NCBI GenBank assembly: GCA_030789695.1
Contig: CM061142.1
Location: forward strand, 41,711,375-41,775,374
From: Scilla litardierei
Lineage: Eukaryota; Streptophyta; Magnoliopsida; Asparagales; Asparagaceae
DNA: 64,000 bases
Reading direction: 5' to 3'
Shown: one piece after another, positions 7,094 through 49,081 of the stretch
Numbering within the stretch: position 1 is the first letter of the stretch
How the letters are laid out: each line of letters starts with the position of its first letter
Position numbers and translations under genes: made by a program
The notes under the pieces: generated by a model
Database searches by the model: none
Told to the model about the DNA's origin: nothing
The model's input: the letters and a program-made list of their open reading frames with translations, nothing else

Positions 7094-7389
7094 TGATCAC
7101 TCCTTATTTTACACCTTTTTCCTGCATGTTTGCATGCCATTTAGATCGCCCAAATCATGTTTTTCACGATATATCGACGATATTGCGATGCTTTTCACGA
7201 TTTGTTGTTTTTGTCGCATTTCAGGTGATTTGGCGCGATTTGGAGTGATCTCGAGATGCGCTTACTCCAGAGGGTCACCGACGACCTCCCCGAGGGGTAT
7301 TTTGCTGTTGGAGCGGAGCGGAAGAAGAACGGACGTCGCAGGAGCGACGAGGAGGCCAAAATAAGCAGATTGGGCATGTTTGTTGTCCC

Positions 7390-7860
7390 ACTCGGCCGAG
7401 TGGAGGAGCCACTCGGCCGACCAGCGAGACACCGCTCGGCCGACCAGATCAGACACGATTTACCTGTGCACTCGGCCGAGCGACGGAGACCACATCGGCC
7501 GAGTGAAGACATCACGTCCGCCCGAGTGGCGCCCAGACGAAGCCCTTCAAAAATCTCCAAGTTTCTGTTTTTCGGCTGCCTGAGCTTCAGAAGACCCACT
7601 CGGCCGAGTGGAGAATCCTGTCTGCCCGAGTACAATGAAGCCATCGGCCGAGTGACGACAACTCACTCGGCCGAGCCGCCCCCGAAGTATAGACCCCTGA
7701 AGGCCCCGACTTACTGGAAAATTACAGGGTTTCTCACTCGGCCGAGCGACCTTTGTCACTCGACCGAGTGCGACGCGCTGCCTGTAGCGAAAATTGCGGA
7801 AAACAGGCTACGCAGGGGTATTTTGGTCACAGTTTTTGGACGATTTTGGGTGCTATTTAA
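7390..7860 (+). promoter_or_regulatory. U3 palindrome array plus TATA box, element A 5' LTR
   Basis: About twelve sites of the form ACTCGGCCGAGT or one-base variants lie between 7390 and 7771, irregularly spaced by 20-80 bp. Examples begin near 7390, 7411, 7433, 7470, 7493, 7599, 7641, 7661, 7733 and 7757. The last ends about 85 bp before a TATA-like TATTTAA at 7854-7860. Position suggests a promoter-upstream element; no binding protein is known to me. Confidence 0.75.
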
Positions 7861-8251
7861 CCCCTGTTTTAACCCTAGTTTTGGAGAGCTTCTCCTTAGA
7901 TTTTTTGCAGCTTTTTAGATTAGCTTTTTAGTTTTATTCTTGAGACTGGAGAGGAGAAAAAGTTTGATTTTTGTTGGATTAATTGAAGAACTCCATTGGT
8001 TTGTCTTTCTCTTCTCTAAAAATTCTATTTTTATTTCATATCTCAATATTGTGATGAATTCTATTGCTTATTTCATTGATTATTTTTGTGATCTTGCTAT
8101 GGATTGTGAGTAGTCGCCACGTCTTGGGGCGTGGGGATGAACCCTACAAGCCCAACTTCATATTTGTGATGAATTAGTAGAAATCTTGCTAGAATTGATA
8201 TCTAGGGATTAGGTTGGGATCAATTTACTACGGTTAGCTAGGAGTTCATAC

Positions 8252-8556
8252 CGATCGGGATTTGCAAGAGATTGGATCCCGATTCGATAGGAAACCCTAG
8301 AAATCCGAATTGGGTTGGAATCGAATTTCCGTAGTATCGGTTTGCAAGAGATTGGACCGATACTAGGGTTTCCGGTTGCAATTCTGTGCCAATACCCGTT
8401 TGCAAGAGATTGGACGGGTAGGAACTATCCCAATCTAGATCGCGAGCCGAGTTTGCAAGAGATTGGGCTCGGTGCGCGATTGGACGATGATGTTGATCCT
8501 AATGCTAGCTTTCCTAGGCTAGGGTTTGCAAGGGATTGGACCCAAACCTAGGATAG
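8252..8556 (+). repeat. Five stem-loops with a common 16-nt loop (element A R/U5)
   Basis: Each unit is stem, loop TTTGCAAGAGATTGGA (one or two variants), complementary stem. Stems: ATCGGGA/TCCCGAT (8254-8260, 8277-8283); AGTATCGG/CCGATACT (8333-8340, 8357-8364); TACCCG/CGGGTA (8393-8398, 8415-8420); CCGAG/CTCGG (8447-8451, 8468-8472); and TCCTAGG...GGG/CCC...CCTAGGA (8512-8524, 8541-8553). The loop is constant and the stems all differ while staying complementary, which points to a selected structure, most likely RNA because the array lies downstream of the TATA-like box. Confidence 0.85.
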
Positions 8557-8910
8557 CTATAGACCGGCAACATCGCGAGAGCGTGAGCTTGGTTCTACAT
8601 TCAGTTGCAACGAGTCCATCCAAAATCTCAATCTAGCAATTTTGAAACCGACGAACCACATTTATGAGATACGGTGAGTAGCGGGGATTCCCCATTCCCT
8701 AGACATTCTTTATTTGATTTGATATTTCCGCGATTTGTCTGACGATTGTGACAGGATCGCCAAAGGAAAATCTTTCTTCTTGAATAGCCAGGGTGATTGG
8801 AACAAGCACGGTCATTCGTCCTCCCTGTGTTCGATATCCCGCTCGCTGCTACACCGTGCACTTGCGGTAAAACTACAACCGTTCTTTAGGGTTACGTCCC
8901 GGAGCGATCA

Positions 8911-8934
8911 AGTTTTTGTCGCCGTTGCCGGGGA
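8911..8934 (+). other. Primer binding site, tRNA-Asp type (element A)
   Basis: AGTTTTTGTCGCCGTTGCCGGGGA follows the LTR end with no gap beyond AGTTTT. It matches the 3' end of plant tRNA-Asp except for one base (T where B has G in TTGGCGCC). Confidence 0.85.
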
Positions 8935-9079
8935 GGCGATTGCGTTTGATCTTACCACCCCTAGCTACTTCTTTTTTTATTATTTTTCACTATTATCACC
9001 ATTATTTCCATTTTTTTTATTTTTTACCTAACCCTTCCACGGTACTAATCATCTCTTTGAAACTCTGTTTTCCCTGTGC

Positions 9080-10978
9080 ATGTACACGAGATCTACGGCG
9101 GACCCCGAAGCTATATTGTTTGATCCAGAGATCGAACGTACCGCGCGGAGACTTAGAGCGGAAAGGAGACAAAATCCGGAAGGGCGGTTTATGACCAACC
9201 CGGAAACTCCTGAACAATTGGCGGCAAGGATGGCGAGGCTAATTTCTATTCGAGATAGGCTTCGGCCTAAGACATCTTCTACTACCTCATCCATTGCCAT
9301 GCCGGGGTTGGCGGCTGACAAGAGCTTCGAGCTAAAGACTGGACTAGTGGTTCTGATGCAGCAGGATCCATTTCATGGGAATGCCCATGAAAATCCCCAC
9401 TACCACATCCAATCGTTCTTGTCGAAGTGCGCCACATTCCAAATGCCGGGGGTCTCCATCGATGCCATCAGACTGCGTCTCTTCCCTTTCATGCTAAAGG
9501 ACAAGGCACTATACTGGTTGAGGACGCAAGCTGAGGGTGTCTTCACCACTTGGGACGAGTTGGCAAGTGCATTTATTGACAAGTTCTATCTGCCATCCAA
9601 GACGGTGAAGATCCGGAGCGCTCTCATGTCCTTCAAGCAAGGACCACAGGAGACGTTCTATGAAGCTTGGGAGCGTTTTAAGGATTTGCAGCATCAATGC
9701 CCGCATCATAGCATTGAAGACTGGGAGTTAGTTCATAGCTTCTACAACGGTCTCCAACCGGGGACCAAACAAATTATTGATGCCGCGGCGAATGGTGCTA
9801 TCTTGTCAAAGACTCCCGAGGAAGCTACGGCCCTAATTGAGGAGATGGCCTCAAATAATCAACAATGGGGCGATGAGCGAGGACACTCTACGTCCTCCTT
9901 AAAGCCAACTAGCATCTACGAGGCGAAGGCCGTAGCGGAGCTTACGAGCAAGTTTGATTCTCTCCACAAGGTAGTGGAGAGATTGGAGAAGTTTATCACG
10001 GAGCCCCAAGGAGCCCCTTCTACCTCCGCTCCAACGAACCAAATGTGTGATTGGCAAGACCAATCTCAAGCCATGTACTCGGGAGGAGAGCAAGGAGAAG
10101 GATCCTTGGAGCAAGTACAATATGTTGCGGGGAACCAAGGATATTGGGCCAATCCGGCCGCAAGAAATCATCCCGGATTCTCATACGCCAACAATGAAGG
10201 AGCTTTGAACCCGCCACAACCGCCACCTCAACAAGCCCGACCACCACTACCACCCCAACAACAAAACTATCCACCGAGGGGGCCTACTCAACAAAATTTT
10301 CAACCAAAGCAACAAGTTCCACCATATAGGCCGCCCGGATACAATCAAGGGTGGAGGAATCAAAATCAAAACCCTCCACAAGCTCAACAACGATCCGACT
10401 TCGAAGCTAGAGTGGAGGCGTTTATGGTCGAGCAAAATAAGGTCAATGCTAGCTTGAAGGCGGGGCAAGACTCTCTTAATACCGTTGTGGCTCAAATATC
10501 GGAGCAATTAGCGTTGCTAAATCGGAACACTCAACGATTGCCGGCGCAACCCGAGCAAAACCCATGGAGCAACACCGGCCACATCAATGCCGTAGTTGCT
10601 GTTACCACTAGAGGCGGAAAGGATACCACCCCCGCCATGATTCCTACCGAGGAGCCCGTGGAGGAAAGCTTGGATCCAATTGAGCCGGTAGTTGAAGATG
10701 ATAAGGAGAAAGAGCCACAAGAAAAGGAGAAATCTAGAGCGGAACAATTGATCGAGGAGAGGCGCTTCATGCCACCGGTCCCATTCCCCCAAAGGCTCGC
10801 TAGAGCGAAAATGGAGAAAAGGCTAGCGAAGTTTCTCGAGTATCTAAGAGGAGTTAGCCTCAATATTCTCTTCCTCGACGCCATCGTGGAGATCCCCACA
10901 TATGCTAAATTCTTAAAGGACTTGATCTCGGGGAGAAAGAGGAAGGAGAAGATCATGCTAGCCGAGGAGGGCTCTTAG
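9080..10978 (+). CDS. gag: Athila-like Gag (element A)
   Basis: Structural capsid polyprotein expected to form virus-like particles in the cytoplasm. 632 codons from the ATG at 9080, the first long-frame ATG after the primer site. The retrotransposon Gag domain spans about residues 95-265, with signature FLSKCATFQMPGV and later DELASAFIDKFY. A Gln/Pro-rich segment follows (about 380-460), then an acidic Glu-rich stretch (about 530-575). I see no CCHC zinc knuckle, as is common in Athila Gag. The frame ends at TAG 10976-10978, but the same frame stays open for another 290 codons through the protease. So the TAG is either a recent mutation or a Gag/Pro readthrough signal. The rest is undamaged, consistent with the young LTRs. 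Confidence 0.9.
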   Translation: MYTRSTADPEAILFDPEIERTARRLRAERRQNPEGRFMTNPETPEQLAARMARLISIRDRLRPKTSSTTSSIAMPGLAADKSFELKTGLVVLMQQDPFHGNAHENPHYHIQSFLSKCATFQMPGVSIDAIRLRLFPFMLKDKALYWLRTQAEGVFTTWDELASAFIDKFYLPSKTVKIRSALMSFKQGPQETFYEAWERFKDLQHQCPHHSIEDWELVHSFYNGLQPGTKQIIDAAANGAILSKTPEEATALIEEMASNNQQWGDERGHSTSSLKPTSIYEAKAVAELTSKFDSLHKVVERLEKFITEPQGAPSTSAPTNQMCDWQDQSQAMYSGGEQGEGSLEQVQYVAGNQGYWANPAARNHPGFSYANNEGALNPPQPPPQQARPPLPPQQQNYPPRGPTQQNFQPKQQVPPYRPPGYNQGWRNQNQNPPQAQQRSDFEARVEAFMVEQNKVNASLKAGQDSLNTVVAQISEQLALLNRNTQRLPAQPEQNPWSNTGHINAVVAVTTRGGKDTTPAMIPTEEPVEESLDPIEPVVEDDKEKEPQEKEKSRAEQLIEERRFMPPVPFPQRLARAKMEKRLAKFLEYLRGVSLNILFLDAIVEIPTYAKFLKDLISGRKRKEKIMLAEEGS

Positions 10979-11851
10979 TTCACCAAGAGAGAGAAGGAGC
11001 CGGCAAAATTTAAAGATCCGGGGAGTTTTCGGATTCCTTGCACCTTGGGCGGAGTTCCTCTTCAAAAGGCGTTGGTTGATCTAGGGGCTAGTGTGAGCCT
11101 CATGCCTCTCTCCATGTTCTTAAGGCTAAACACCGGGACAAAGTTGAAACCCACCGACATGCGCATTCAATTAGCCGATGGACGGATAACAAGGCCGGTG
11201 GGGATCGCCGAAGACATCCCGCTACAAGTCCCGGGGGGAATATGCTTGCCATGTGACTTCGTGATCATGGACGTTAAGGATGAGGGAGATACTTCATTGA
11301 TACTTGGACGCCCGTTCCTCGCCACCGCCGGAGTGATTGTCGACGTGCGTGAAGGTACCCTAACTTTAAATGTCGGCAACATCGAGGTGGAGCTTCACAT
11401 TCCTAAGGCTATGAAGCACATGCCTTACCACGAGGAGCTTGATTACATGGACCTCCTTGATGAGGTAATTGAGGAGGCGATCCCCCACTCTATTGGCGCT
11501 CTATTCGATGAAAATTTCGAGAAAGGCCCGGATTTAGGCCAAAATGAGAAGAAAGATGATTCCCCCGACCTCTCCGCTGAAGATGATGAAGGCGACGTTG
11601 ATGTCGCAAGGATTCGAGAGCTCTGTAAGCTCTCGAAATTAAAGTCTCCAAAGAAAGCTCCTCCGGTACGGAAATCGACATCACCGGTGAAGCCGTTGAC
11701 CGGAGCAAATGCTAGCTTGGGGGAGCCTCCCCCCAACACTATTCGAGATGGGAGACCACCGAGGGAGAACACGCCGCCACGTCCAAATCCAAGCGCGCTC
11801 CCCGGAAAGTTTGATGGGTGCATCTCATATGCACCAATCATCCCGCATTGA
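10979..11851 (+). CDS. pro: Athila-like aspartic protease, in frame with Gag after a TAG
   Basis: Retroviral-type aspartic protease that would cut the Gag polyprotein. It has no ATG of its own in a suitable place; the frame continues from Gag across the TAG at 10976. The active-site motif ALVDLGASVSLMP is at about 11069-11107 (DLGAS replaces the more usual DSGAS, normal for this lineage), and the closing motif LILGRPFL is near 11298-11322. After residue 150 the protein becomes acidic and then Pro/Lys-rich, and ends at 11851. No RT follows, only the short spacer (GGGAGGCAACCCGACGG near 11900) that elsewhere sits after the end of pol. So the deletion of RT-RNase H-integrase appears precise and probably old in this subfamily. 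Confidence 0.88.
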   Translation, partial: FTKREKEPAKFKDPGSFRIPCTLGGVPLQKALVDLGASVSLMPLSMFLRLNTGTKLKPTDMRIQLADGRITRPVGIAEDIPLQVPGGICLPCDFVIMDVKDEGDTSLILGRPFLATAGVIVDVREGTLTLNVGNIEVELHIPKAMKHMPYHEELDYMDLLDEVIEEAIPHSIGALFDENFEKGPDLGQNEKKDDSPDLSAEDDEGDVDVARIRELCKLSKLKSPKKAPPVRKSTSPVKPLTGANASLGEPPPNTIRDGRPPRENTPPRPNPSALPGKFDGCISYAPIIPH

Positions 11852-12180: not shown

Positions 12181-12526
12181 ACTCGGCTGAGTATACTAGT
12201 CACTCGGCCGAGTACATAAGTTCGTCCAGCTGAGCCGCTCACGAACGAGGAAAGTCTGCTGAACCCAACTCTCTGTTTATTTTCCTGATTTCAGTATAAC
12301 TGCTACTCGGCCGAGTATATATTCCCACTCGGCCGAGTAAAACGGATACGCTCCTAGGGCGAGTCTTGCCGAGTAGCTTGAGCCACTCGGCCGAATGGAC
12401 TTACTTCACTCGGCCGAGGCTGGCAAGGCCACTCGGCCGATGCGTAAGAGGGGAGGAATTTCCATTGATTCCACTCGGCCGAGTGACCTAGTCACTCGGC
12501 CGAGTCGTAACTTCTGCTATATAAGG
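12181..12526 (+). promoter_or_regulatory. Internal palindrome array plus TATA box upstream of the 3' ORF
   Basis: About ten CTCGGCCGAG palindromes or variants lie at 12182-12507 (for example 12199, 12305, 12331, 12384, 12407, 12431, 12472, 12492), followed at once by CTATATAAGGGG (TATA 12518-12526). The core closely matches the LTR promoter of element B (GGCTATATAAGGGGTTT at 32316 and 38599). It looks like a second, internal promoter able to make a subgenomic mRNA for the 13059-15245 ORF. That it is active is inference. Confidence 0.65.
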
Positions 12527-12719
12527 GGTCGAGGGGGGCACGTTTTTCGAAACGCTGAAACCGATCGTGCCCCCCGACATTTCAGCTTCCCTCGCCCGCT
12601 CGCACCCCTTACTCGCCCGACCGCCGTCGTCGCGCCGCCGCTCGGCCAGCCATCGCCGGCCGACCCCCGCCGTGACTCGACCGAGTCGCCGCCGGCGGCC
12701 GCCGCTCCGACCACCTCCG

Positions 12720-13058: not shown

Positions 13059-15245
13059 ATGCCGCCCCGGACACGGCCGCGGTCGAAGAGAGCTTCCGCC
13101 AAGCGGAAGCGGTCGGATGATGCCGGCCCCTCCCACGAGTTGGAGGACTCTCCTCCACCGTCTCCCACACATGCCGTCCACCCAGCACAGCCTGCAGGCC
13201 CCGCACACCCCGCACAGCCTGCAGTGCACCCACAGCCCGCACAGCCTCTCCCTGCCGCTGCACAGCCACCACCTCCGGCTCCACTTGTCGGGCCGCTCGG
13301 GATTACGTTCTGAGACGACGCACACCGCGCCGTCTTCGACCGTATCTCCCAGCGCTCGATCGTACCCTCCAGGTTTGCACACCTCGCTGACCTAGGACGC
13401 CTGGGGGTACTAGAGGGGATGCTCACGTTGTACGACAACGTGGGCTGGCGAGATTTCTTCCAGGTGTCGGCGGACATGTTCACCCGCCCGACACTTGAGG
13501 TTCTGAGTTCGATCACCCGGACCGACGAGGGATGCTCGTTTCGGTTCATGGATCGAGAGTGCCAGGTCACTCTCGATATGATGAGAGCGTTTTTCTCGTG
13601 GCCCGCTGTCCCCGGTGCCGATCGCGGTTACGGCCCCACCCATATCCCCCCACCTTCCTTCGATGCCGGTGCCTTCTGGGCCCGGATTACGGGTCTTCAC
13701 GCTGCCTTTGACCCTAGTAGGGCCAAGGCCTCGGCCATTGTCCATCCCTGCCTCTGCATTGCTCAGCGCCTTATGGCGACGACCTTTTTGGCCAGATATG
13801 AGCCGGGCACGATGTCTACGCCAGAGCTCTACATGCTCTACGCGATGACACGTCCCAGAGCTCTATCTAGGGATGGCGATGAGCTTTTCCCCGCCGTCGT
13901 GATCGATATCGCGGCTTGGTTTTTGGACCGCATCATCGTATCGGTGGGCGCTCGCTTACCGATATGCTGCGGCGGCCTGATCACCTTGCTTGCTCTTATG
14001 ACCGGCGAGGACTTCCCCGACGACTTGCGACGCATCCCGGGCCCCACTTCTCTGTCGATAGATGTTATGGCCCGGATGAAGATGCTTCGTCCGCACGGTG
14101 AGCGTCACTGGGTCTGGTTGCACGGCCCTTACGGGGCCGATTACATGATTCTCCCGAGCCCTGCTCAGACTCAGATTGCACCAGCCCACGTTGACTGGCT
14201 CCCTGCGATGGATGTTCTCATCCCCGCTGCTTACGTGCTCGAGGCCGAGGAGGCCGAGCAGGCCCACGCTGCCCCTGTAGACCCTGTTGCACACCCTGCC
14301 GAGCCTGCTGCCCCTGCTGACCCTGTGGCCCCTCAGCCCATACCTGACGTTTCCGCTGCTCCTGACACCTCTGTCGGTGTCGAGAGCACCTCAGCTGAGC
14401 CCACTTCCACCACCTCCACCACTTCCGAGGTTGTCACCACCACTCCCACCACCACCACTCCCACCACCACCACTAGCCCTCTGTCCGTCGAGCCTCTTTG
14501 CTCCGCACTCCCCGAGCGCCCATCGACCTTTGTTGAGAGTGGAGAGCCCTCGTTTGCCGCGGTCGTGGAGACCATGGCTAGCATGATCTCCGCTGGGGTT
14601 GCGCCTTTTGGTCCACACACTTCCACCCCAGCGGTAGTCACCTCTGTCTCCACCCCTGCTGTATTTTCCGAGAGCGTCGTGGCGTCTGTCCACACTTCTG
14701 TGCCACCGACCTCTCTGGCCGCCTCGCTGCCATTTTTGCACTCTTCTTTCGCTGCTGCTGCCTCCACTTCTCACCAGTCTGTGCCCCGGCCTCACACTGA
14801 GGCCAGGCCCACATTTGCTGGCGCAGCACCTTTCGTACCCTTCCCCGCTGAGCCCGTCACATACGCGACCCGAGTACGCCAGCCACGCCCTGCACAGCCC
14901 CGTCCGGTGCGTCCCTCTGCACCACCTCCCCCTGACACTGTACTTCAGAGCATTCGTGCTCTAGAGGGGGCGGTGAGTGGCCTCAGAGGCGACCTTAGGA
15001 CCCTGTCCTCCACCGTCTCTGCGATGGCTGGCCGCTTCGAGCTGCTACCGCAGATTCATTACTGTCTCACCCAGGTTCTGGAGCGTCTCCCGCGCGTACC
15101 CCCACCCACCCAGCAGGTTCCCGCCCACACTTCCACACACACCCGACCTGCCACCACTTCCATACCCACACCCGCTCAGCGGCCTGTCCAGCCACCACCA
15201 CCACCTCCGCCTCAGGACGGAGACGGTGCAGCACCACCTTCCTAG
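13059..15245 (+). pseudogene. ATHILA-type 3' ORF with one premature TGA (element A)
   Basis: Resembles the ATHILA ORF-1 family, a plant retrotransposon protein of unsettled role encoded downstream of pol (sometimes called env-like). 729 codons in one frame from ATG 13059, interrupted only by TGA at 13311-13313 (codon 85; probably CGA to TGA). Residues 1-25 are very basic (MPPRTRPRSKRASAKRKR), like a nuclear localisation signal. Residues 30-83 are Pro/Ala/His-rich. The conserved globular domain is about residues 110-390, with signatures RFMDRECQVTLDMMRAF and LARYEPGTMSTPELYMLYA. A long Pro/Ser/Thr-rich low-complexity region follows (400-620), then a predicted coiled segment near 625-665 and a Pro-rich tail. 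I see no signal peptide or clear membrane segment, so a true envelope role is doubtful. Frames on the opposite strand are shadows. Confidence 0.82.
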
Positions 15246-17184: not shown

Positions 17185-17480
17185 TGATCACTCCTTATTT
17201 TACACCTTTTTCCCGCATGTTTGCATGCCATTTAGATCGCCCAAATCATGATTTTCACGATATATCGACGATATTGCGATGCTTTTCACGATTTGTTGTT
17301 TTTGTCGCATTTCAGGTGATTTGGCGCGATTTGGAGTGATCTCGAGATGCGCTTACTCCAGAGGGTCACCAACGACCTCCCCGAGGGGTATTTTGCTGTT
17401 GGAGCAGAGCGGAAGAAGAACGGACGTCGCAGGAGCGACGAGGAGGCCAAAATAAGCAGATTGGGCATGTTTGTTGTCCC

Positions 17481-17951
17481 ACTCGGCCGAGTGGAGGAGC
17501 CACTCGGCCGACCAGCGAGACACCGCTCGGCCGACCAGATCAGACACGATTTACCTATGCACTCGGCCGAGCGACGGAGACCACATCGGCCGAGTGAAGA
17601 CATCACGTCCGCCCGAGTGGCGCCCAGACGAAGCCCTTCAAAAATCTCCAAGTTTCTGTTTTTCGGCTGCCTGAGCTTCAGAAGACCCACTCGGCCGAGT
17701 GGAGAATCCTGTCCGCCCGAGTACAATGAAGCCATCGGCCGAGTGACGACAACTCACTCGGCTGAGCCGCCCCCGAAGTAGAGACCCCTGAAGGCCCCGA
17801 CTTACTGGAAAATTACAGGGTTTCTCACTCGGCCGAGCGACCTTTGTCACTCGGCCGAGTGCGACGCGCTGCCTGTAGCGAAAATTGCGGAAAACAGGCT
17901 ACGCAGGGGTATTTTGGTCACAGTTTTTGGACGATTTTGGGGGCTATTTAA
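17481..17951 (+). promoter_or_regulatory. U3 palindrome array plus TATA box, element A 3' LTR
   Basis: Same organisation as 7390-7860. One site that is CTCGACCGAG in the 5' LTR (7757) is CTCGGCCGAG here (17848), and one GGCCG site of the 5' copy is GGCTG here (17760). Confidence 0.75.
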
Positions 17952-18342
17952 CCCCTGTTTTAACCCTAGTTTTGGAGAGATTCTCCTTAGATTTTTTGCA
18001 GCTTTTTAGATTAGCTTTTTAGTTTTATTCTTGAGATTGGAGAGGAGAAAAAGTTTGATTTTTGTTGGATTAATTGAAGAACTCCATTGGTTTGTCTTTC
18101 TCTTCTCTAAAAATTCTATTTTTATTGCATATCTCAATATTGTGATGAATTCTATTGCTTATTTCATTGATTATTTTTGTGATCTTGCTATGGATTGTGA
18201 GTAGTCGCCACGTCTTGGGGCGTGGGGATGAACCCTACAAGCCCAACTTCATATTTGTGATGAATTAGTAGAAATCTTGCTAGAATTGATATCTAGGGAT
18301 TAGGTTGGGATCAATTTACTACGGTTAGCTAGGAGTTCATAC

Positions 18343-18647
18343 CGATCGGGATTTGCAAGAGATTGGATCCCGATTCGATAGGAAACCCTAGAAATCCGAA
18401 TTGGGTTGGAATCGAATTTCCGTAGTATCGGTTTGCAAGAGATTGGACCGATACTAGGGTTTCCGGTTGCAATTCCGTGCCAATACCCGTTTGCAAGAGA
18501 TTGGACGGGTAGGAACTATCCCAATCTAGATCGCGAGCCGAGTTTGCAAGAGATTGGGCTCGGTGCGCGATTGGACGATGATGTTGATCCTAATGCTAGC
18601 TTTCCTAGGCTAGGGTTTGCAAGAGATTGGACCCAAACCTAGGATAG
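18343..18647 (+). repeat. Five stem-loops with a common loop, element A 3' LTR
   Basis: Copy of the array at 8252-8556 shifted by 10,091 bp. The fifth loop is TTTGCAAGAGATTGGA here, showing that the AAGGG form in the 5' LTR is the variant. Confidence 0.85.
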
Positions 18648-19001
18648 CTATAGACCGGCAACAGCGCGAGAGCGTGAGCTTGGTTCTACATTCAGTTGCA
18701 ACTAGTCCATCCAAAATCTCAATCTAGCAATTTTGAAACCGACGAACCACATTTATGAGATACGGTGAGTAGCGGGGATTCCCCATTCCCTAGACGTTCT
18801 TTATTTGATTTGATATTTCCGCGCTTTGTCTGACGATTGTGACAGGATCGCCAAAGGCAAATCTTTCTTCTTGAATAGCCAGGGTGATTGGAACAAGCAC
18901 GGTCATTCGTCCTCCCTGTGTTCGATATCCCGCTCGCTGCTACACCGTGCACTTGCGGTAAAACTACAACCGTTCTTTAGGGTTACGTCCCGGAGCGATC
19001 A

Positions 19002-31290: not shown

Positions 31291-31592
31291 TGATCGGTCC
31301 ATATTTTACACCTTTTTTCTGCATATTTTCATGCCATTTTGATTGCTCATATTGCGATTTTCACGAGTATTCGACGATATTGCGTTACTTTTCACTATTT
31401 CTTGTTTTTGTCGGATTTCAGGAAATATAGAGCAATCGGAAGCAAAAGTGAGCTTAAAGGACTTGCACATGTACCGGAGTGTCGCCCACGACTCATTTGC
31501 AGACTTATCGGCGATGGAGGATGAGTGGAAGAAGAAGGAACTTCATAGGAGCGACGAGGAGGAGAAACAGAGAAGATTGGGCATTTACAGCA

Positions 31593-32326
31593 TGCCACTC
31601 GGCCGAGTGAAGCACTCACTTGGCCGAGCAAGAAGACCACTCGGCCGACCAGACCGGACACGCACCACAGAAGGAAATCAGCGTGCACTCGGTCGAGTGA
31701 CGATAGTCCACTCGATCGAGTATGGAGATCCCCTCGTCCGAGTGGCACGGAAAAATCCACCCATCGAAGGATCCGACTTACTGGAATCCGTCAGGCAATT
31801 GAGGGTGTCTACTCGGCCGAGTACAAACGCCCACTTGGCCGAATGATGAAAGCCACTCGGCCGAGCCGCCCCCCGAAGACAGACCCTGAAACATCCGAAG
31901 TTACTGTATTTTTACAGGGTTTTTCAATCGGCCGAGTAGAGAAGCCCACTCGACCGAGTGGAGAAGTCCACTCGGCCGAGTGACGCCGATGACACACACG
32001 CCCAGATTTTCAGACAACCTTCCACTATTTTGAAATCTTCTATAATTCCAGCAATCAAAGTATTTTTCTCATATTTTTTATGGATAGTAGACTTCATGAA
32101 GGTTCCAATGCCACCAAGAACGTGCCAATCGGAGGTCGGATGAAATCTGGAGAATTTCTGCAAGTTGACACTGCAGTGCTGGAATTTCCACTCGGCCGAG
32201 TCAGATTGCCACTCGGCCCGAGTGGCGACGGGCCCAGATTTTAAGTTACGGTTAGGGCTGTTTTTGGGCACGATTTTGGGGGGTTTTCTAGGGTTATTTG
32301 CTAGGGTTTTGGGTGGCTATATAAGG
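31593..32326 (+). promoter_or_regulatory. U3 palindrome array plus TATA, element B 5' LTR
   Basis: About fifteen CTCGGCCGAG-type sites, some changed to CTCGGTCGAG, CTCGATCGAG or CTTGGCCGAG, from 31596 to 32225; then GGCTATATAAGGGG with TATA at 32318-32326. Confidence 0.75.
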
Positions 32327-32689
32327 GGTTTATAGCCACCATTAGAGGGGAGTTCCCATGATGTTTTCTTAGACTCTATTTTAGAGGTTAGGCCATGCCC
32401 TAGGCCCCCTCTTATATCTAAAAGCTTGTATTTGGATTGAAGATCTTCATCAAACCTAAGTATTTTGTTCTTGTTATTTGATTCTTTGTTTTCTATCTTT
32501 TTGTATGCAAGCAATGATTTTTATTGATTCCTATATCGTTGTTGCTATGCTTGAGTAGATTTGATGTTCTAGGGCATGTGGATGAACCCTATGGATCTAA
32601 TTTCATATTTGTGATGAATGAATTTCTAAATTGCTAGAATTGCTAGAAGGTTAGGCTGTGATTGATTTATTACGGATAGCTAGGAATTT

Positions 32690-32990
32690 CCATCGATTTG
32701 GGGTTTGCAAGAGATTGGATTCTACTCGATGGGAAGGCCTAGATTTCGATTTAGGTTTATAATCGAGATTTTCTAGACTTGGTTTGCAAGAGATTGGACC
32801 AAAGCTAGGATTTTTATTATAAATCTATACTAATATTCGTTTGCAAGAGATTGGATGAATACGAACTATCACAACCTAGATCGTGACTCGAGTTTGCACG
32901 AGAGTGGGCTCGAAGAGCGATTGAACGATGACGTCGATCCTAATTCTAGCGGCGTAGATTAGGGTTTGCAAGAGATTGAGCCCTAACCTA
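32690..32990 (+). repeat. Five stem-loops with the common loop, element B 5' LTR
   Basis: Loop TTTGCAAGAGATTGGA or close variants, each closed by a different stem: CCATCGA/TCGATGG (32690-32696, 32726-32732); TTGG/CCAA (about 32780, 32803); TATTCG/TGAATA (about 32834, 32856); CTCGAG/CTCGA (about 32887, 32909); TTAGGG/CCCTAA (32959-32964, 32981-32986). Stem sequences differ from those of element A at every position in the series, yet remain complementary. Confidence 0.82.
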
Positions 32991-33393
32991 GGTTGCTATT
33001 GATCGGCAATAGCACAAGAGCGTGAGCTTGGTTCTCTATTCAGTCACGACTAGTTCACCTCAACACAAGTCTAGTAATATTGAGATTCACTATTTACAAT
33101 GATGTATGACGATCAGTAGTGGGAATTCCCTAGCCCTAGACACTTTTATTATCTTATATTTGAATCGATACTTATCCGACTTTTCTATCTCCGACACCGA
33201 CATCCATTATCATTGCCATTACATCATACCATACCCATCTCCACCAATAAAACATTCGTAGTCAAACCAACCTAGGATAGATTGGAGCCAACACTACCTC
33301 CTCGTGTTCGATACCCGCTCCCCCCTTGACCATGCGCTTACGGTAAAACTACAATCGTTCTTCAGGTGTATATCCCGGGGCCGACCAAGTTTT

Positions 33394-33583
33394 TGGCGCC
33401 GTTGCCGGGGATTTATCTCCGTGTAATTTGCGCCATAGCTAGGTCTTTCTTGGGTTACATTTTAGAGCGATCAAGTTTTTGGCGTTGTTGCCGAGGATTT
33501 ATCTCCGTGTAATTTGCGCCATAGCTCGGTCTTTCTTGGGTTACATTTTGGAGAGATCAAGTTTTTGGCACCGTTGCCGGGGA
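33394..33583 (+). repeat. Three primer-site units in an 86-bp tandem repeat
   Basis: TGGCGCCGTTGCCGGGGA (33394-33411), a degenerate copy (33480-33497) and TGGCACCGTTGCCGGGGA (33566-33583) are exactly 86 bp apart, each followed by TTTATCTCCGTG- or GGTG-type sequence. The first is inside the LTR (it also occurs in the 3' LTR at 39678-39695), the second directly follows the LTR end, and the third is the best preserved outside the LTR. Confidence 0.9.
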
Positions 33584-37596: not shown

Positions 37597-37908
37597 TGAT
37601 CGGTCCATATTTTACACCTTTTTTCTACATATTTTCTTGCCATTTCGATTACTCATATTGCGATTTTCACGAGTATTCGACGATATTGCGTTACTTTTCA
37701 CTATTTCTTGTTTTTGTCGGATTTCAGGAAATATAGAGCAATCAGAAGCAAAAATGAGCTTAAAGGACTTGCACATGTACCGGAGTGTCGCCCACGGCTC
37801 ATTTGCAGACTTATCGGCGATGGAGGATGAGTAGAAGAAGAAGGAACTTCATAGGAGCGACGAGGAGGAGAAATGGAGAAGATTGGGCATTTACAGCATG
37901 ACACTCGA

Positions 37909-38609
37909 CCAAGTGAAGCACTCACTCGGCCGAGCAAGAAGACCACTCGGCCGACCAGACCGGACACGCACCACAGAAGGAAATCAGCGTGCACTCGGTC
38001 GAGTGACGATAGTCCACTCGACCGAGTATGGAGATCCCCTCGTTCGAGTGGCACGGGAAAATCCACCCATCGAAGGAGCCGACTTACTGGAATCCGTCAG
38101 GCAATTGAGGGCGTCTACTCGGCCGAGTACAAACGCCCACTCGGCCGAATGATGAAAGCCACTCGGCCGAGCCGCCCCCCGAAGATAGACCCTGAAACAT
38201 CCAAAGTTATTGTATTTTTACAGGGTTTGTCACTCGGCCGAGTAGAAAAGCCCACTCGATCGAGTGGAGAGTCCACTCGGCCGAGTGACGCCGATGACAC
38301 ACACGCCCAGATTTTCAGACAACCTTCCACTATTTTGAAATATGCTATCATTCCAGAAATCAAAGTATTTTTCTCATATTTTTTATGGATAGTAGACTTC
38401 ATGAAGGTTTCAACACCGCCAAGAACGCGCCAATCGGAGGTCGGATGAATTCTGGAGAATTTCTGCAAGTTGACATTGCAGTGCTGGAATTTCCACTCGG
38501 CCGAGTGGCGGCGGGCCCAGATTTTAAGTTGCGGCTAGGGCTATTTTTGGGCACGATTTTGGGGGGTTTTCTAGGGTTATTTGCTAGGGTTTTGGGTGGC
38601 TATATAAGG
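37909..38609 (+). promoter_or_regulatory. U3 palindrome array plus TATA, element B 3' LTR
   Basis: Same organisation as 31593-32326, with one palindrome fewer next to the TATA. Confidence 0.75.
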
Positions 38610-38973
38610 GGTTTGTAGCCACCATTAGAGGGGAGTTCCCATGATGTTTTCTTAGACTCTATTTTAGAGGTTAGGCCATGCCATAGGCCCCCTCTTAGAT
38701 CTAAAAGCTTGTATTTGGATTGAAGATCTTCATCAAAGCTAAGTATTTTGTTCTTGTTATTTGAATCTTTTTTTTTCTATCTTTTTGTATGCAAGCAATG
38801 ATTTTTATTGATTCCTATATTGTTGTTGCTATGCTTGAGTAGATTTGATGTTCTAGGGCATGGGGATGAACCCTATGGATCTAATTTCATATTTGTGATG
38901 AATGAATTTCTAAATTGCTAGAATTGCTAGGAGGTTAGGTTGTGATTGATTTATTACGGATAGCTAGGAATTT

Positions 38974-39274
38974 CCATCGATTTGGGGTTTGCAAGAGATT
39001 GGATTCTACTCGATGGGAAGGCCTAGATATTCGATTTAGGTTTATAATCAAGATTCTCTAGACTTGGTTTGCAAGAGATTGGAACAAAGCTAGTATTTTT
39101 ATTATAAATCTATACTAATATTCATTTGCAAGAGATTGGACGAATACGAACTATCACAACCTAGATCGTGACTCGAGTTTGCACGAGAGTGGGCTCGAAG
39201 AGCAATTGAACGATGACGTCGATCCTAATGCTAGCGGCGTAGGTTAGGGTTTGCAAGAGATTGGGCCCTAACCT
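38974..39274 (+). repeat. Five stem-loops, element B 3' LTR
   Basis: As at 32690-32990. The fifth stem is a perfect 9-bp AGGTTAGGG/CCCTAACCT here (39241-39249, 39266-39274). The third is TATTCA/CGAATA, so its inner pair is lost on the opposite side from the 5' LTR, which has TATTCG/TGAATA. Confidence 0.82.
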
Positions 39275-39757
39275 AGGTTGCTATAGACCGACAATAGCGC
39301 GAGAGCGTGAGCTTGGTTCTCTATTCAGTCACGACTAGTTCACCTCAACACAAGTCTAGTAATATTGAGATTCACTATTTACAATGATGTATGACGATCT
39401 GTAGTGGGAATTCCCTAGCCCTAGACACTTTTATTATCTTATATTTGAATAGATACTTATCCGACTTTTCTATCTCCGACACCGACATCCATTACCATTG
39501 CCATTACATCATACCATACCCATCTCCACCAATATACATTCGTAGTCAAACCAACCTAGGATAGATTGGAGCCAATACCACCTCCTCGTGTTCAATACCC
39601 GCTCGCCACTTGACCGTGCGTTTGCGGTAAAACTACAATCGTTCTTCGGGTGTATATCCCGAGGCCGACCAAGTTTTTGGCGCCGTTGCCGGGGATTTAT
39701 CTCCGTGTAATTTGCGCCATAGCTAGGTCTTTCTTGGGTTACATTTTGGAGCGATCA

Positions 39758-40527: not shown

Positions 40528-41172
40528 AGTGCATCAGCACTTGACCGAGCTGACACTCAGATCAAAAGAAGTGCTTCAGAATGGACACGCACTACTCGAC
40601 CGAGTGGAGAAGCTACTCGGTCGGACCAACTCGGCCAGCGCTAATATTTCCAACACTTAGCCAAGATTTGAGAGCCTAAGGCCACTCGACCGAGTTGATC
40701 AGTTGCTCGACCGAGCAGATCTCCTACTCGATCGAGCTCGAACCAAACATAACGATCATTTTGAAGACTTTTCTAACCTACTGTAGCTCGACCGAGCACG
40801 AAAGCTACTCGTCCAAGCGTAACCGCCTTGGTCGAGTAAGGCAAGCGCCCTGATTTTCAGACAGCCTCTCACTCTTTTGAGATATTCTATCATTCCAGTT
40901 GGCAAAGTATTTTTCTCATATATTTCATGGATAGTAGACTTCATGATGGTTCCACCGCCGCCAACATGTCAATCGGAGGTCAGATGAATTCTACAGAAAT
41001 TCTGCAAGATGGCATTGCAGAGTTGAAATCTGCACTTGACCGAGTGTAGTTTCTACTCGGTCTGAGTCAACTGGGGCCCAGAACTTAAGTTGTGGCCAGA
41101 AACAGATTTGGGCCGAATTTCAGAGGGTTTTGTTGGGTTATTTGCTTGGGTTTTGAGGAGACTATATATATG
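40528..41172 (+). promoter_or_regulatory. U3 palindrome array plus TATA, element D LTR
   Basis: About ten sites such as CTCGACCGAG, CTCGGTCGG and CTCGATCGAG lie from 40528 to 41065, then CTATATATATG at 41162-41172. Confidence 0.7.
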
Positions 41173-41448
41173 TATTAGCCGTCATTAAGAAAAAACCAAC
41201 CCCCATTTGGGGATCCATCTTATTTTCCTTGGAGCTTTATGGATACTCTTTCAGGAGTTATGACATGCCATAGACCCCTCCTCTTGTATCAAGCTAAGTA
41301 TTTTTATTCCTTTCAATTCTATTTTTAGTTCTTATTGTTTTCTTATATGCATGCAATGTTGATCTCTCTTGATTTCTCTTTTATTATCATGATTGAGTAG
41401 AATTGTTGCTAGGGCTAGGTTGAATCCTATTGCTAGGGTAGCATAATT

Positions 41449-41955
41449 GATGGGGTAGTGATCCAAGATATTGGCACCAAACCCATCTCAATGTGGGATT
41501 CTTTGATTGTTGGATCTTAGTCTAGGGAAGGAATTTGATCACAATTGGTTCTACGAATTGACAACCCTAGAATTCTTGAATTGACAACTCTTGGTGGTCG
41601 ATGAACTCACCCTAGGATAAACCCAATAATCAAGGGTATTCTATAGCGAGATGATCCCCAACGTTGGCATCGATGCGATCCAAGACATTGGCGCTGCTAC
41701 AACATAGCCAGGAATCGAGGGTGCCGTAGAGTTATGTTGCGGTTTGCTATCATCGGGGGTGATAGGAATTCGATAGATGTGGTGATCCATGACAGTGGCA
41801 CTCGTCTTGAGAAGTCCCCTCATGTTGGAATAGGGTTGTAACTTGGCACCAACCCTAGTCACGATGATCCATGACAGTGGCACGAACCCTAGTCATTTGT
41901 TACATCTCTATATCGCTTACTAGGTGATCCACGACAGTGGCACCAAAGTATAGAG
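41449..41955 (+). repeat. Stem-loop series with loop ATCCAWGACAKTGG, element D LTR
   Basis: Six copies of a loop near ATCCAAGACATTGG are bordered by complementary ends: GATGGGGTAGTG/CACCAAACCCATC (41449-41487); GATG/CATC (41650-41671); GCG/CGC (41675-41694); GGTG/CACT (41781-41802); a weak one near 41864-41885; GGTG/CACC (about 41923-41944). Same design as in A and B with a different loop. Confidence 0.65.
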
Positions 41956-42324
41956 CCCCCACAACATATTTCGACTCGTCGGTCGATTCGATCCCTAGAT
42001 ACGTATAAGCTTCATTCCGTGCCCGAATCAGTAGTGAGGATACCGAACACATAATGACATTTCTCTCATCTGTTTTCTCTTTGTTTTATTTATTTCTTTC
42101 TTCATGGAGTCATTTGTTTGCGACATCGAGTGACATAACCGTCGCATCCATCACCATCACGACACTCCATAATCCATATCCACCAATAAAACTCGCAGTC
42201 TAACCAACCTAGGAGTAGATAGGTAGTATAGCACTGTCTCCCCGTGTTTGATACCTGCTCACCGCTATACCGTGCGCTTGCGGTAAAACGACCTCGTTTC
42301 CGGAGTTTAATTCCGGGCCGATTA

Positions 42325-42973: not shown

Positions 42974-43923
42974 TGTTATTTTTTGTGATTCAAATCCCAT
43001 GGAGCCATTTTCCCATATGACTCGGTCGAGTAGGAGGCTACTCGGTCGAGCAGCAAGCTCTCGATCGAGCAGCATGAAGACTCTGACAGACCGAGCAGGC
43101 AAAGAGTTTGGGGAAGTTTTTCCTTTGGCTCGGGTGACTCTTACTCGGTCGAGTAGGAGGCTCGACCGAGCAGCTGGAAGGCTTTGTTTGCCCGAGCAAC
43201 CCGAGGGCATTCCGTTTGAGGAGGGATACTGACACTCAGGCAGAGTAGCCAGGCTACTCGACCGAGTCGACTCGACTCCACCTAGCGACATTTTTAGGGC
43301 ATGTCAGCTCGACCGAGCAGGCCGAGCTGACAGCCGACTCGGGCCGAGCAACGCGCAGGGTCAAGCAGGGAACTGACGGCCTGTATGTGTTTTCTCCTAT
43401 TTTTTTGGGTTTCTACTTAAACCTAACTATTGTTTTAGATTAGGTTAAGCCTCCTTTTGGATTGAGAGAGTTTTGGAGAGCCTCTTGCTACCCCCATTAG
43501 AGATTGGAGAGAGTTTTAGGGTTTGTGTTCTTGAGAGAAAGGTTTGGTTTTTTCCTTCTCTTATTCTTCCATTGATTTCTTCCTCTTGAATGGATTCATG
43601 AGGGCTTGTTCCGTGTGACAAGTTATTACTCATGCGTGAGGAAGGAGTTTGTAATCCTAATTGTTTGGATCTCTCTACTAGTGGAATCGTCTCGGATCGG
43701 ATTGCTGGATGTAGGTTGTTTACAACCGAACCAGGGTAAATTATCTTGTGTCTGCGATTGATTTATTTGTTACTGTGATTCGTTTGCTACTTTCTATTGG
43801 AAGGTCATTTGGAAATTTTGTTGGGTCATTGGGAATTGATTTTTGCTAGCTTTATATCCCTGATCAGTTTATTAGGATTGGTTTCCGCATTGATCCCAAG
43901 GTGATTTGGATTTCACCCCAACA
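42974..43923 (+). repeat. 5' LTR of element F
   Basis: Palindromic part 43020-43340, a weak TATA-like CTACTTAAA at 43412-43420, and inverted repeat AACCTAA/TTAGGTT straddling 43418-43446. The 3' LTR additionally contains a palindrome (near 48295-48320) that the 5' LTR lacks. Confidence 0.9.
43020..43420 (+). promoter_or_regulatory. U3 palindrome array, element F 5' LTR
   Basis: Eight to ten sites of type ACTCGGTCGAGTA, CTCGATCGAG, CTCGACCGAG or CGGGCCGAG lie between 43020 and 43350, followed by a TATA-like CTACTTAAA. Confidence 0.7.
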
Positions 43924-48109: not shown

Positions 48110-49081
48110 TGTTGTTTTTTGTGATTCAAATCCCATTGAGCTATTTTCCCAGGTGACTCGGTTGAGTAGGAGGCTACTCGGTCGAGCAGCAAGCCCTCGA
48201 CCGAGCAGCATGAAGACTCTGACAGACCGAGCAGGCAGAGAGTTTGGGGAAGTTTTCCCTTTGGCTCGGGTGACTCCTACTCGGTCGAGTAGGAGGCCAC
48301 TCGGTCGAGCAGCAAGCTGCTCGACCGAGCAGCTGGAAGGCTTTGTTTGCCCGATCAGCCTGAGGGCATTCTGTTTGAAGAGGGATACTGACACTCAGAC
48401 CGAGTAGCTAGGCTACTCGACCGAGTCGACTCGACTCCACCCATCGACATTTTTAGGGCATGTCAGCTCGACCGAGCAGGCCGAGTTGACAACCGACTCA
48501 GGCCGAGAGCGCGCGGGGCCAAGCAGGGAACCGACGACCTGGATGTGTTTTCTCCTATTGTTTTGGGTTTCTAACTTAAACCTAACTATTGTTTTAGATT
48601 AGGTTAAGCCTCCTTTTGGATTGAGAGAGTTTTGGAGAGCCTCTTGCTACCCCATTGGAGATTGGAGAGAGTTTTAGGGTTTGTGTTCTTGAGAGAAAGG
48701 TTTGGTTTTTCCTTCTCTTCTTCTTCCATTGATTTCCTCCTCTTGAGTGGATTCGTGAGGGCTTGTTCCGTTTGACAAGTTATTACTCACGCGTGAGAAA
48801 GCGAATTTGTAACCCTAATTGTTTGGATCTCTCTACTAGTGAAATCTTCTCGGATCGGATTGCTGGATGTAGGTTTTTTACAACCGAACAAGGGTAAATT
48901 CTCTTGTGCCTGCGATTGATTTATTTGTTGCTGTAATTCGTTTGCTACTTTCTATTGCAACGTCATTTGGGAATTTTGTTGGGTCATTGGGAATAGATTT
49001 TTGCTAGCTCTATATTCCTGATCAGTTTATTAGGTTTGATTTCTGCATTGATCCCAATGGGATTTGGATTTCACCCCAATA
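48110..49081 (+). repeat. 3' LTR of element F
   Basis: 972 bp, closely similar to the 5' LTR. Palindromes at 48155-48480, including one duplicated ACTCGGTCGAGCAGCAAGC unit not in the 5' copy. The end CAATA shows a CA to TA change. Confidence 0.9.
48155..48480 (+). promoter_or_regulatory. U3 palindrome array, element F 3' LTR
   Basis: Same motif type as 43020-43350 with about ten sites. Confidence 0.7.

Follow-up and report, generated by a model that had tools for sequence, protein, structure and literature searches.

Tandem hairpins with a near-constant core in the LTRs of Athila-related retrotransposons of Scilla litardierei: a candidate Gag packaging signal

Results

Two array-bearing LTR elements

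We analyzed a stretch of 64,000 nucleotides from Scilla litardierei (assembly GCA_030789695.1, contig CM061142.1, positions 41,711,375 to 41,775,374 of the forward strand), hereafter called the window and numbered from its first letter. It contains two LTR elements, A and B, and a degraded LTR-like stretch, with the following features.

7094 to 8910, plus strand: LTR of element A, 5′ copy (TGATCA...GATCA), found by self-blastn; TATA-like TATTTAA at 7854 (motif scan)
8917 to 8934, plus strand: PBS-like TGTCGCCGTTGCCGGGGA directly 3′ of LTR A (motif scan)
9032 to 10978, plus strand: Gag ORF of element A (Retrotrans_gag domain)
10979 to 11851, plus strand: protease ORF of element A (domain scan)
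13314 to 15245, plus strand: ORF of element A with the Pfam ATHILA domain (PF03078, 40.6 bits, cut-off 20.2)
17185 to 19001, plus strand: LTR of element A, 3′ copy (self-alignment), 98.9% identical to 7094-8910
31291 to 33473, plus strand: LTR of element B, 5′ copy (self-alignment); TATA-like motif at 32318
37597 to 39757, plus strand: LTR of element B, 3′ copy, 95.1% identical to 31291-33473; TATA-like motif at 38601
40846 to 42321, plus strand: degraded LTR-like stretch resembling parts of LTR B; TATA-like motif at 41163

By its ATHILA ORF-1 domain, element A is assigned to the Athila lineage of Ty3/Gypsy retrotransposons. The same domain was also detected, at 22.4 bits, in L207, a stretch flanked by two array-bearing LTRs. 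Element B is tied to the lineage by LTR similarity only, and no ATHILA domain was found in it. The motif scan also gave a PBS-like site, TGGCGCCGTTGCCGGGGA, in element B at position 33394, and we take both TGTCGCCGTTGCCGGGGA and TGGCGCCGTTGCCGGGGA to be of the tRNA-Asp type. At 33382-33583 the end of LTR B and the adjoining PBS-like sequence are tandemly repeated (90.5%; one PBS-like site at 33394, another at 33566), so that the boundary of LTR B appears to have shifted, taking in an old PBS.

The gap between the protease and ATHILA ORFs of element A is only about 1.5 kb, too little for a reverse transcriptase and an integrase, and no domain of either enzyme was found in its 23 plus-strand ORFs of at least 60 aa between 11700 and 17184, where, beyond the protease and ATHILA domains, one sub-threshold match (E 0.1) was obtained. 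In element B no domain whatever was found in 15 plus-strand ORFs of at least 60 aa. Since these scans covered ORFs of at least 60 aa, a reverse transcriptase split by stops into smaller pieces could be missed. The domain scan found no zinc knuckle in the Gag ORF of element A (P0001), whereas the same scan detected zf-CCHC in a Copia ORF (P0004).

Several other features were recorded in these elements. In the leader of element A, just 3′ of the hairpin array described below, a possible intron (GTGAGT ... GTGACAG, 8675-8755) was noticed by eye; by eye it is absent from element B. The Rfam family snoR71 (RF00097) matches the Gag ORF in antisense orientation (9608-9714, minus strand; 49.9 bits, gathering score 40). 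Palindromic ACTCGGCCGAG(T) sites gave 109 matches in the window with at most one change and both strands counted (shuffle mean 0.4), and they form dense blocks 5′ of the TATA-like motifs of element A (7390-7769 and 17481-17860) and of element B (31597-32201 and 37924-38506). Element A has a further ACTCGGCCGAG cluster at 12181-12686, in the interval that separates its protease ORF from its ATHILA ORF, which gives the impression of captured U3 sequence at the place where pol is expected. One-change ACTCGGCCGAG(T) sites also occur at 43020-43267 and 48176-48426, within a repeat pair (42973-43921/48109-49079) that brackets a Copia-type gag ORF, and the motif is thus common to unrelated superfamilies.

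Five core units in each LTR

An initial sequence-only reading of the window had described, at 8252-8556, five tandem stem-loops with an almost constant 16-nt loop and covarying stems. The array at that location is real, but it is one of four in the window, to which a fifth, related array at about 41460-41943 is to be added. The units are as follows.

8253 to 8284, plus strand: hairpin 1 of the 5′ LTR of A (A1), core 8261-8276 (core search, arm energies, array fold)
8333 to 8364, plus strand: A1 hairpin 2, core 8341-8356 (core search, arm energies, array fold)
8391 to 8422, plus strand: A1 hairpin 3, core 8399-8414 (core search, arm energies, array fold)
8444 to 8475, plus strand: A1 hairpin 4, core 8452-8467 (bulged form under whole-array folding)
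8517 to 8548, plus strand: A1 hairpin 5, core 8525-8540, with one loop change and longer arms
18352, 18432, 18490, 18543, 18616, plus strand: cores of the 3′ LTR of A (A2)
32704, 32783, 32840, 32893 (CAC/GUG), 32965, plus strand: cores of the 5′ LTR of B (B1)
38988, 39068, 39125, 39178 (CAC/GUG), 39250, plus strand: cores of the 3′ LTR of B (B2)
41460, 41653, 41677, 41784, 41866, 41926, plus strand: six cores of the GATCCANGACANTGGCAC type in the degraded stretch

When the window was searched for TTTGCAAGAGATTGGA with at most two mismatches, 18 matches were obtained (13 exact, four with one change and one with two), compared with a mean of 0.12 and a maximum of 2 in shuffled sequence. The two units missed by this search are unit 4 of the two B LTRs (cores 32893 and 39178), each with three changes. 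All 20 expected units were thus located in the four LTRs, five in each as had been proposed, with the exact 16-mer in 13 of 20. The core-to-core spacing is 80, 58, 53 and 73 nt in A and 79-80, 57, 53 and 72 nt in B, and a comparison of A2 with B2 gives identities of 96% for the cores, 68% for the arms and 72% for the linkers. The arrays lie between the TATA-like motifs and the LTR end, and hence are predicted to belong to R/U5 RNA. The first core starts 407 nt (A1), 386 nt (B1), 387 nt (B2) and 297 nt (the stretch at 40846) after the TATA-like motif, which would place the array some 300-400 nt downstream of that motif in the transcript.

Arms pair with their own partners

The pairing of the arms was assessed at arm positions 1-6 of the five units, giving 30 positions per array. 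Own partners pair at 28 (A1), 28 (A2), 26 (B1) and 24 (B2) of these, whereas reassigning every 3′ arm to another unit gave at most 19, 19, 22 and 21, respectively. Among the 119 other arm orders, the own value was reached by none in A1 or A2 and by one each in B1 and B2. Duplex energies gave the same picture for element A, where the best partner of each 5′ arm is its own 3′ arm (-9.7 to -17.7 kcal/mol, compared with -10.3 for the best swapped pair); averages of these energies were taken over 13 chosen arrays. The unit-specific pairing claimed earlier is therefore borne out, most clearly in A (28/30 own, 19 or fewer swapped), and it is these five independent arm pairs within a single array that establish the pairing best.

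The core is predicted to fold rather than to stay open

The 16-nt core had been taken for a constant open loop. Folding predicts another form: an inner stem of positions 5-7 with 12-14 (CAA/UUG) under a GAGA cap, a bulge at positions 3-4, and below it pairing of positions 1-2 with 15-16. This bulged form, with its 3-bp inner stem, 2-nt bulge and tetraloop (mostly GANA), appeared in 15 of the 20 window units under whole-array folding (5/5 in A1, 5/5 in A2, 3/5 in B1 and 2/5 in B2). Two-sided changes in the inner stem likewise speak for that stem and against the open loop. The predicted hairpin consists of an outer stem, a 5′-side bulge of 2 nt, an inner stem of 3-4 bp and, mostly, a GANA tetraloop. 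The loop positions read GAGA in 143 of the 150 type-1 units (cores of the TTTGCAAGAGATTGGA kind) and GATA or GACA in 16/20 and 31/42 units of types 2a and 2b (below).

The inner pair 7-12 varies, being C/G in unit 4 of B. However, the predicted fold of this unit is a hexaloop, with the new G12 paired with C5, and when single copies of unit 4 with arms of 8 nt were folded, only 1 of 29 took the bulged form or part of it, compared with 94 of 145 for all units (29 of the 30 type-1 arrays, L115 being left out). The C/G change by itself is therefore no proof of the bulged fold.

In the 3.68-Gb genome the exact 16-mer core has 139,488 copies. Counted as 15-mers, the C/G form of the inner pair has 31,788 copies and the half-changed C/T form 242, while backward-read control sequences gave 0 or 1 match; these genome counts are lower bounds and the copies are related. 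The G/C form was dropped as a signal, as its 9 copies compare with about 7 estimated by chance. Two other candidates were also set aside. A CCAAT-type DNA site in the core is missing from the type-2 cores and from the C/G unit 4. A search for relatives in IMG/VR gave 94 stretches with one 15-mer match each (best 80 of 94, three examined), which we took as chance.

A second core type in the same register

The GATCCANGACANTGGCAC-type units led to further families, through 18 exact copies of one such core. From 82 stretches (78 loci and the four of the window), with duplicates and incomplete chains left out, we assembled 41 complete distinct arrays, namely 30 of type 1, four of type 2a and seven of type 2b. 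The spacing in type 2a (L157, L158, L161 and L171) is about 80-82, 61, 52 and 71 nt, the same register as in A and B. In a further 20 stretches, picked for holding such a core, 1 to 4 units each passed the pairing filter. One array with type-2 cores (L165, 1226-1516) is spaced 40, 40, 116 and 78 nt, so that unit number and spacing can change between families.

The cores of types 1 and 2 align base by base, and both have the 2-nt bulge. Their closing pair is U-A or U.G in type 1 and mostly G-C in type 2, with C-G in 2 of 20 type-2a units. The correspondence breaks at position 4-15, where type 2 has C-G but type 1 has two Gs. An inner C-G gives way to U-A in unit 3 of type 2a, which reads CUAC/GUAG against CCAC/GUGG in its neighbours; genome-wide, GATCTACGATAGTAGCA has 279 exact copies and GATCCACGATAGTGGCA has 1,042 copies. 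The arms of type 2a are less specific than those of A and B, in that 5 to 19 of the 119 arm orders reach the own value in the four arrays and swapped arms are nearly as good.

Covariation between families is limited to type 1

The arms had also been described as a case of classic covariation, and this description survives in part. Pairing-preserving double changes exceeded permutations at p < 0.003 in four of eight comparisons (A2 to L098, L098 to A2, A2 to L115 and A2 to L109); for example, A2 and the B copy L098 differ by 7 such changes where 4.2 are expected. The excess had a p of 0.047 from B2 to A2, and it was not significant from A2 to B2 (p 0.14), A2 to L103 (0.12) or L149 to L098 (0.30). 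On a tree of 29 type-1 arrays, 5 compensatory double changes were counted where 1.3 were expected (p 0.0035), pair-breaking changes numbered 18 against 26.4 expected (p 0.0015), and controls with slid partners gave 0 or 1 double changes.

Type 2a behaved differently, with no compensatory double change (0.43 expected) and no fewer breaks than expected (12 against 10.5). With both types pooled, double changes reached p 0.09, the 28 breaks exceeded the expected 21.6, and controls with slid partners gave 1 to 3 double changes against 3 real ones. A check with R-scape had been proposed; our own R-scape-like script, run as a per-pair test on the tree of 45 arrays, found none of 15,753 pairs at E ≤ 0.05, so individual pairs are not proven by that criterion (the tree tests used 45 of 47 rows, identical rows being dropped). 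Judged from these alignments, covariation between families is moderate and confined to type 1.

The sense strand folds better in B

The 331-nt A2 array has a predicted folding energy of -129.2 kcal/mol in the sense direction (z -5.83) and -121.2 in the antisense direction (z -8.00), whereas for B2 the values are -103.6 (z -4.83) and -71.7 (z -2.03). By folding models, B thus favours the sense strand, and A does so by energy only. Over 29 of the 30 type-1 arrays, the sense hairpins were more stable than the antisense ones in 14 of 15 clade-unit means, the core itself contributing part of the difference. G.U pairs outnumber A.C mismatches among the distinct arm pairs of type 1 (26 vs 8 at positions 1-5; 44 vs 32 at all eight positions) and of type 2a (12 vs 5 at positions 1-3), but type 2b shows the reverse (7 vs 9 at positions 1-3; 12 vs 38 at eight); these counts were compared by a binomial test, and the rows are related copies.

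Discussion

RNA selection by Gag is the best-known need for a cis signal that is served in trans. The arrays are kept in A, which gave no domain of a reverse transcriptase or an integrase, and in B, which gave no Pfam domain (ORFs of at least 60 aa in both cases), and this retention in elements without recognizable replication genes favours a cis-acting RNA signal with the proteins supplied in trans. We tentatively propose, as the leading candidate yet with less than even confidence, that the array is a multi-site packaging signal for Gag. The five hairpins would fold in the predicted R/U5 leader RNA and would be bound together by the element's Gag. A constant core joined to variable but paired arms suggests a reader of the core, with the arms as presenters: a protein would read the core, any paired sequence would serve to hold it up, and five copies would give avidity. 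Because a zinc knuckle was not found in Gag, its basic region is proposed as the binder; Ty1 Gag and the NC-like proteins of foamy viruses are likewise described as lacking zinc fingers (PMC4974528, in part). As for parasitic use of such a signal, BARE2 makes no Gag but, according to the available part of PMC3735527, has kept its dimerization and packaging signals.

A wider reading, possible but held with somewhat less confidence, is a periodic RNA operator array. Here five or six near-identical hairpins at fixed spacing would serve as docking sites for a protein, the core (UUUG...GAGA or GAUC...GAUA) being swapped as a set while the geometry is kept; core and reader would coevolve, and elements without replication genes would parasitize the system. 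Little is known of the way in which plant LTR retrotransposons choose their own RNA, or of how this choice is hijacked by elements lacking a reverse transcriptase, and the literature that we found on RNA selection concerns yeast Ty1/Ty3 and the BARE elements of barley. The repeated hairpin, with its near-fixed core, offers a defined candidate site, making RNA selection testable as binding of Gag to a 40-nt RNA, and the array may in addition serve as a diagnostic mark of related element families.

After the Gag packaging signal, we rank next a regulatory element like TAR or RRE, which we consider unlikely. An accessory protein of the element (such as the ATHILA ORF product) or a factor of the host would bind the bulged hairpins and so boost the RNA's transcription, stability or nuclear export. 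A 5′-side bulge, 3-4 bp and an apical loop come close to the geometry of HIV TAR (as given in PMC7599994, in part), the array lies 3′ of a TATA-like motif, and element A encodes a large ATHILA ORF. On the other side, the array begins about 300-400 nt past that motif, away from the 5′ end of the RNA, and B, whose 15 plus-strand ORFs gave no domain, keeps it, which would require a protein acting in trans. Hairpins predicted to be stable could instead impede scanning of the leader, so that ribosomes would have to shunt or enter internally and RNA for translation would be kept apart from RNA for packaging; between the assumed start at 7885 and the first in-frame Gag ATG, at 9080, the A leader has eight ATGs. 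We regard such translation control as rather improbable, since a block to scanning has no need of a constant core, and B keeps the paired arms and constant cores without a recognizable Gag.

A feature acting at the DNA level, such as a protein site or a cruciform, or a mere by-product of inverted repeats, would need no RNA role. The palindromic arms are present in DNA, many palindromic ACTCGGCCGAG sites lie 5′ of the TATA-like motif in these LTRs, and the A array has a better z in antisense (-8.00) than in sense (-5.83); we nevertheless find this explanation improbable in view of the type-1 bias for G.U over A.C, the more stable sense strand in 14 of 15 means, and unit 1 of B, where pairing persists with the help of several G.U pairs whose counterparts on the opposite strand would not pair. 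Dimerization or a long-range RNA contact through the loops appears very unlikely. The core does contain the palindrome TTGCAA, but this sits in the predicted lower stem, bulge and inner stem, outside the loop, and is absent from type-2 cores; the predicted GANA tetraloops are not self-complementary; and, against simple base shuffles, the core complement in A was no longer than in shuffles, and in B a single match of 10 nt equalled the longest one in the shuffles. With a mostly GANA loop and no core complement in A beyond shuffle length, we abandoned loop-loop dimerization. Least credible of all is a decoy or trigger of small-RNA silencing, with the hairpins as precursors or siRNA sites. Regulatory siRNA854 is made from Arabidopsis Athila RNAs, but it is RDR6-dependent (both from the accessible part of PMC3276544), the short, varied arms are presumably unlike long Dicer precursors, and the constant part of the array is the core.

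The hairpins had been said to resemble no known element, and this holds for Rfam and for the literature searched by title and abstract start. No Rfam family reached its gathering score over the array, with weak matches far below gathering in 18200-18800. Among the matches listed (for two of the queries the best 12 of 20 and the best 15 of 370), nothing described a tandem array of hairpins in LTRs of Athila or of other plant elements, in a search of titles and abstract beginnings that included few subscription papers or preprints. One listed paper concerns quadruplexes in plant LTR elements (PMC3902901).

Among known systems, HIV TAR resembles the predicted array RNA in lying in the transcribed part of the LTR, with a 5′-side bulge a few bp below the apical loop (PMC7599994, in part). 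However, TAR has a 3-nt bulge and a 6-nt loop where the array has a 2-nt bulge, a 4-nt loop and five copies; TAR lies within the first tens of nucleotides of the transcript, whereas the cores start 297-407 nt past the TATA-like motifs; and TAR works with Tat, while no Tat-like protein was identified for the array. A dimer initiation site has a self-complementary apical loop, unlike the array, whose predicted loops are mostly GAGA, GATA or GACA. Athila siRNA854 of Arabidopsis is likewise a regulatory RNA from an Athila element (PMC3276544, in part), but it is a small RNA and the array is a tandem hairpin structure of the leader. The Conserved Hairpin Site of the fungal GalEa Copia elements is also a conserved hairpin near the LTR and is thought necessary for transposition; by the available text of PMC5445492 it is a single hairpin directly 3′ of the 5′ LTR, with no PBS and with conserved arms, while the array combines variable arms with a nearly fixed core. 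In the barley pair BARE1/BARE2, too, a partner making no Gag keeps its cis signals, but these are Copia elements, and a tandem hairpin array is not described in the accessible part of PMC3735527.

A parallel for the proposed packaging function is retroviral psi, in the leaders of HIV-1, MMTV and FIV, which consists of cis-acting 5′-leader hairpins with several sites and tetraloops (PMC7599994, in part), features predicted for the array as well. Binding by Gag or NC is known there for the retroviruses and is putative for the array, and psi is composed of a few different hairpins (same source), whereas in the array a single design, its core near-constant and its arms specific to each unit, recurs five or six times. 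Leader hairpins of retroelements are thus a known kind, and what is new, within the reach of our searches, is the repetition of a near-constant-core design in a fixed register.
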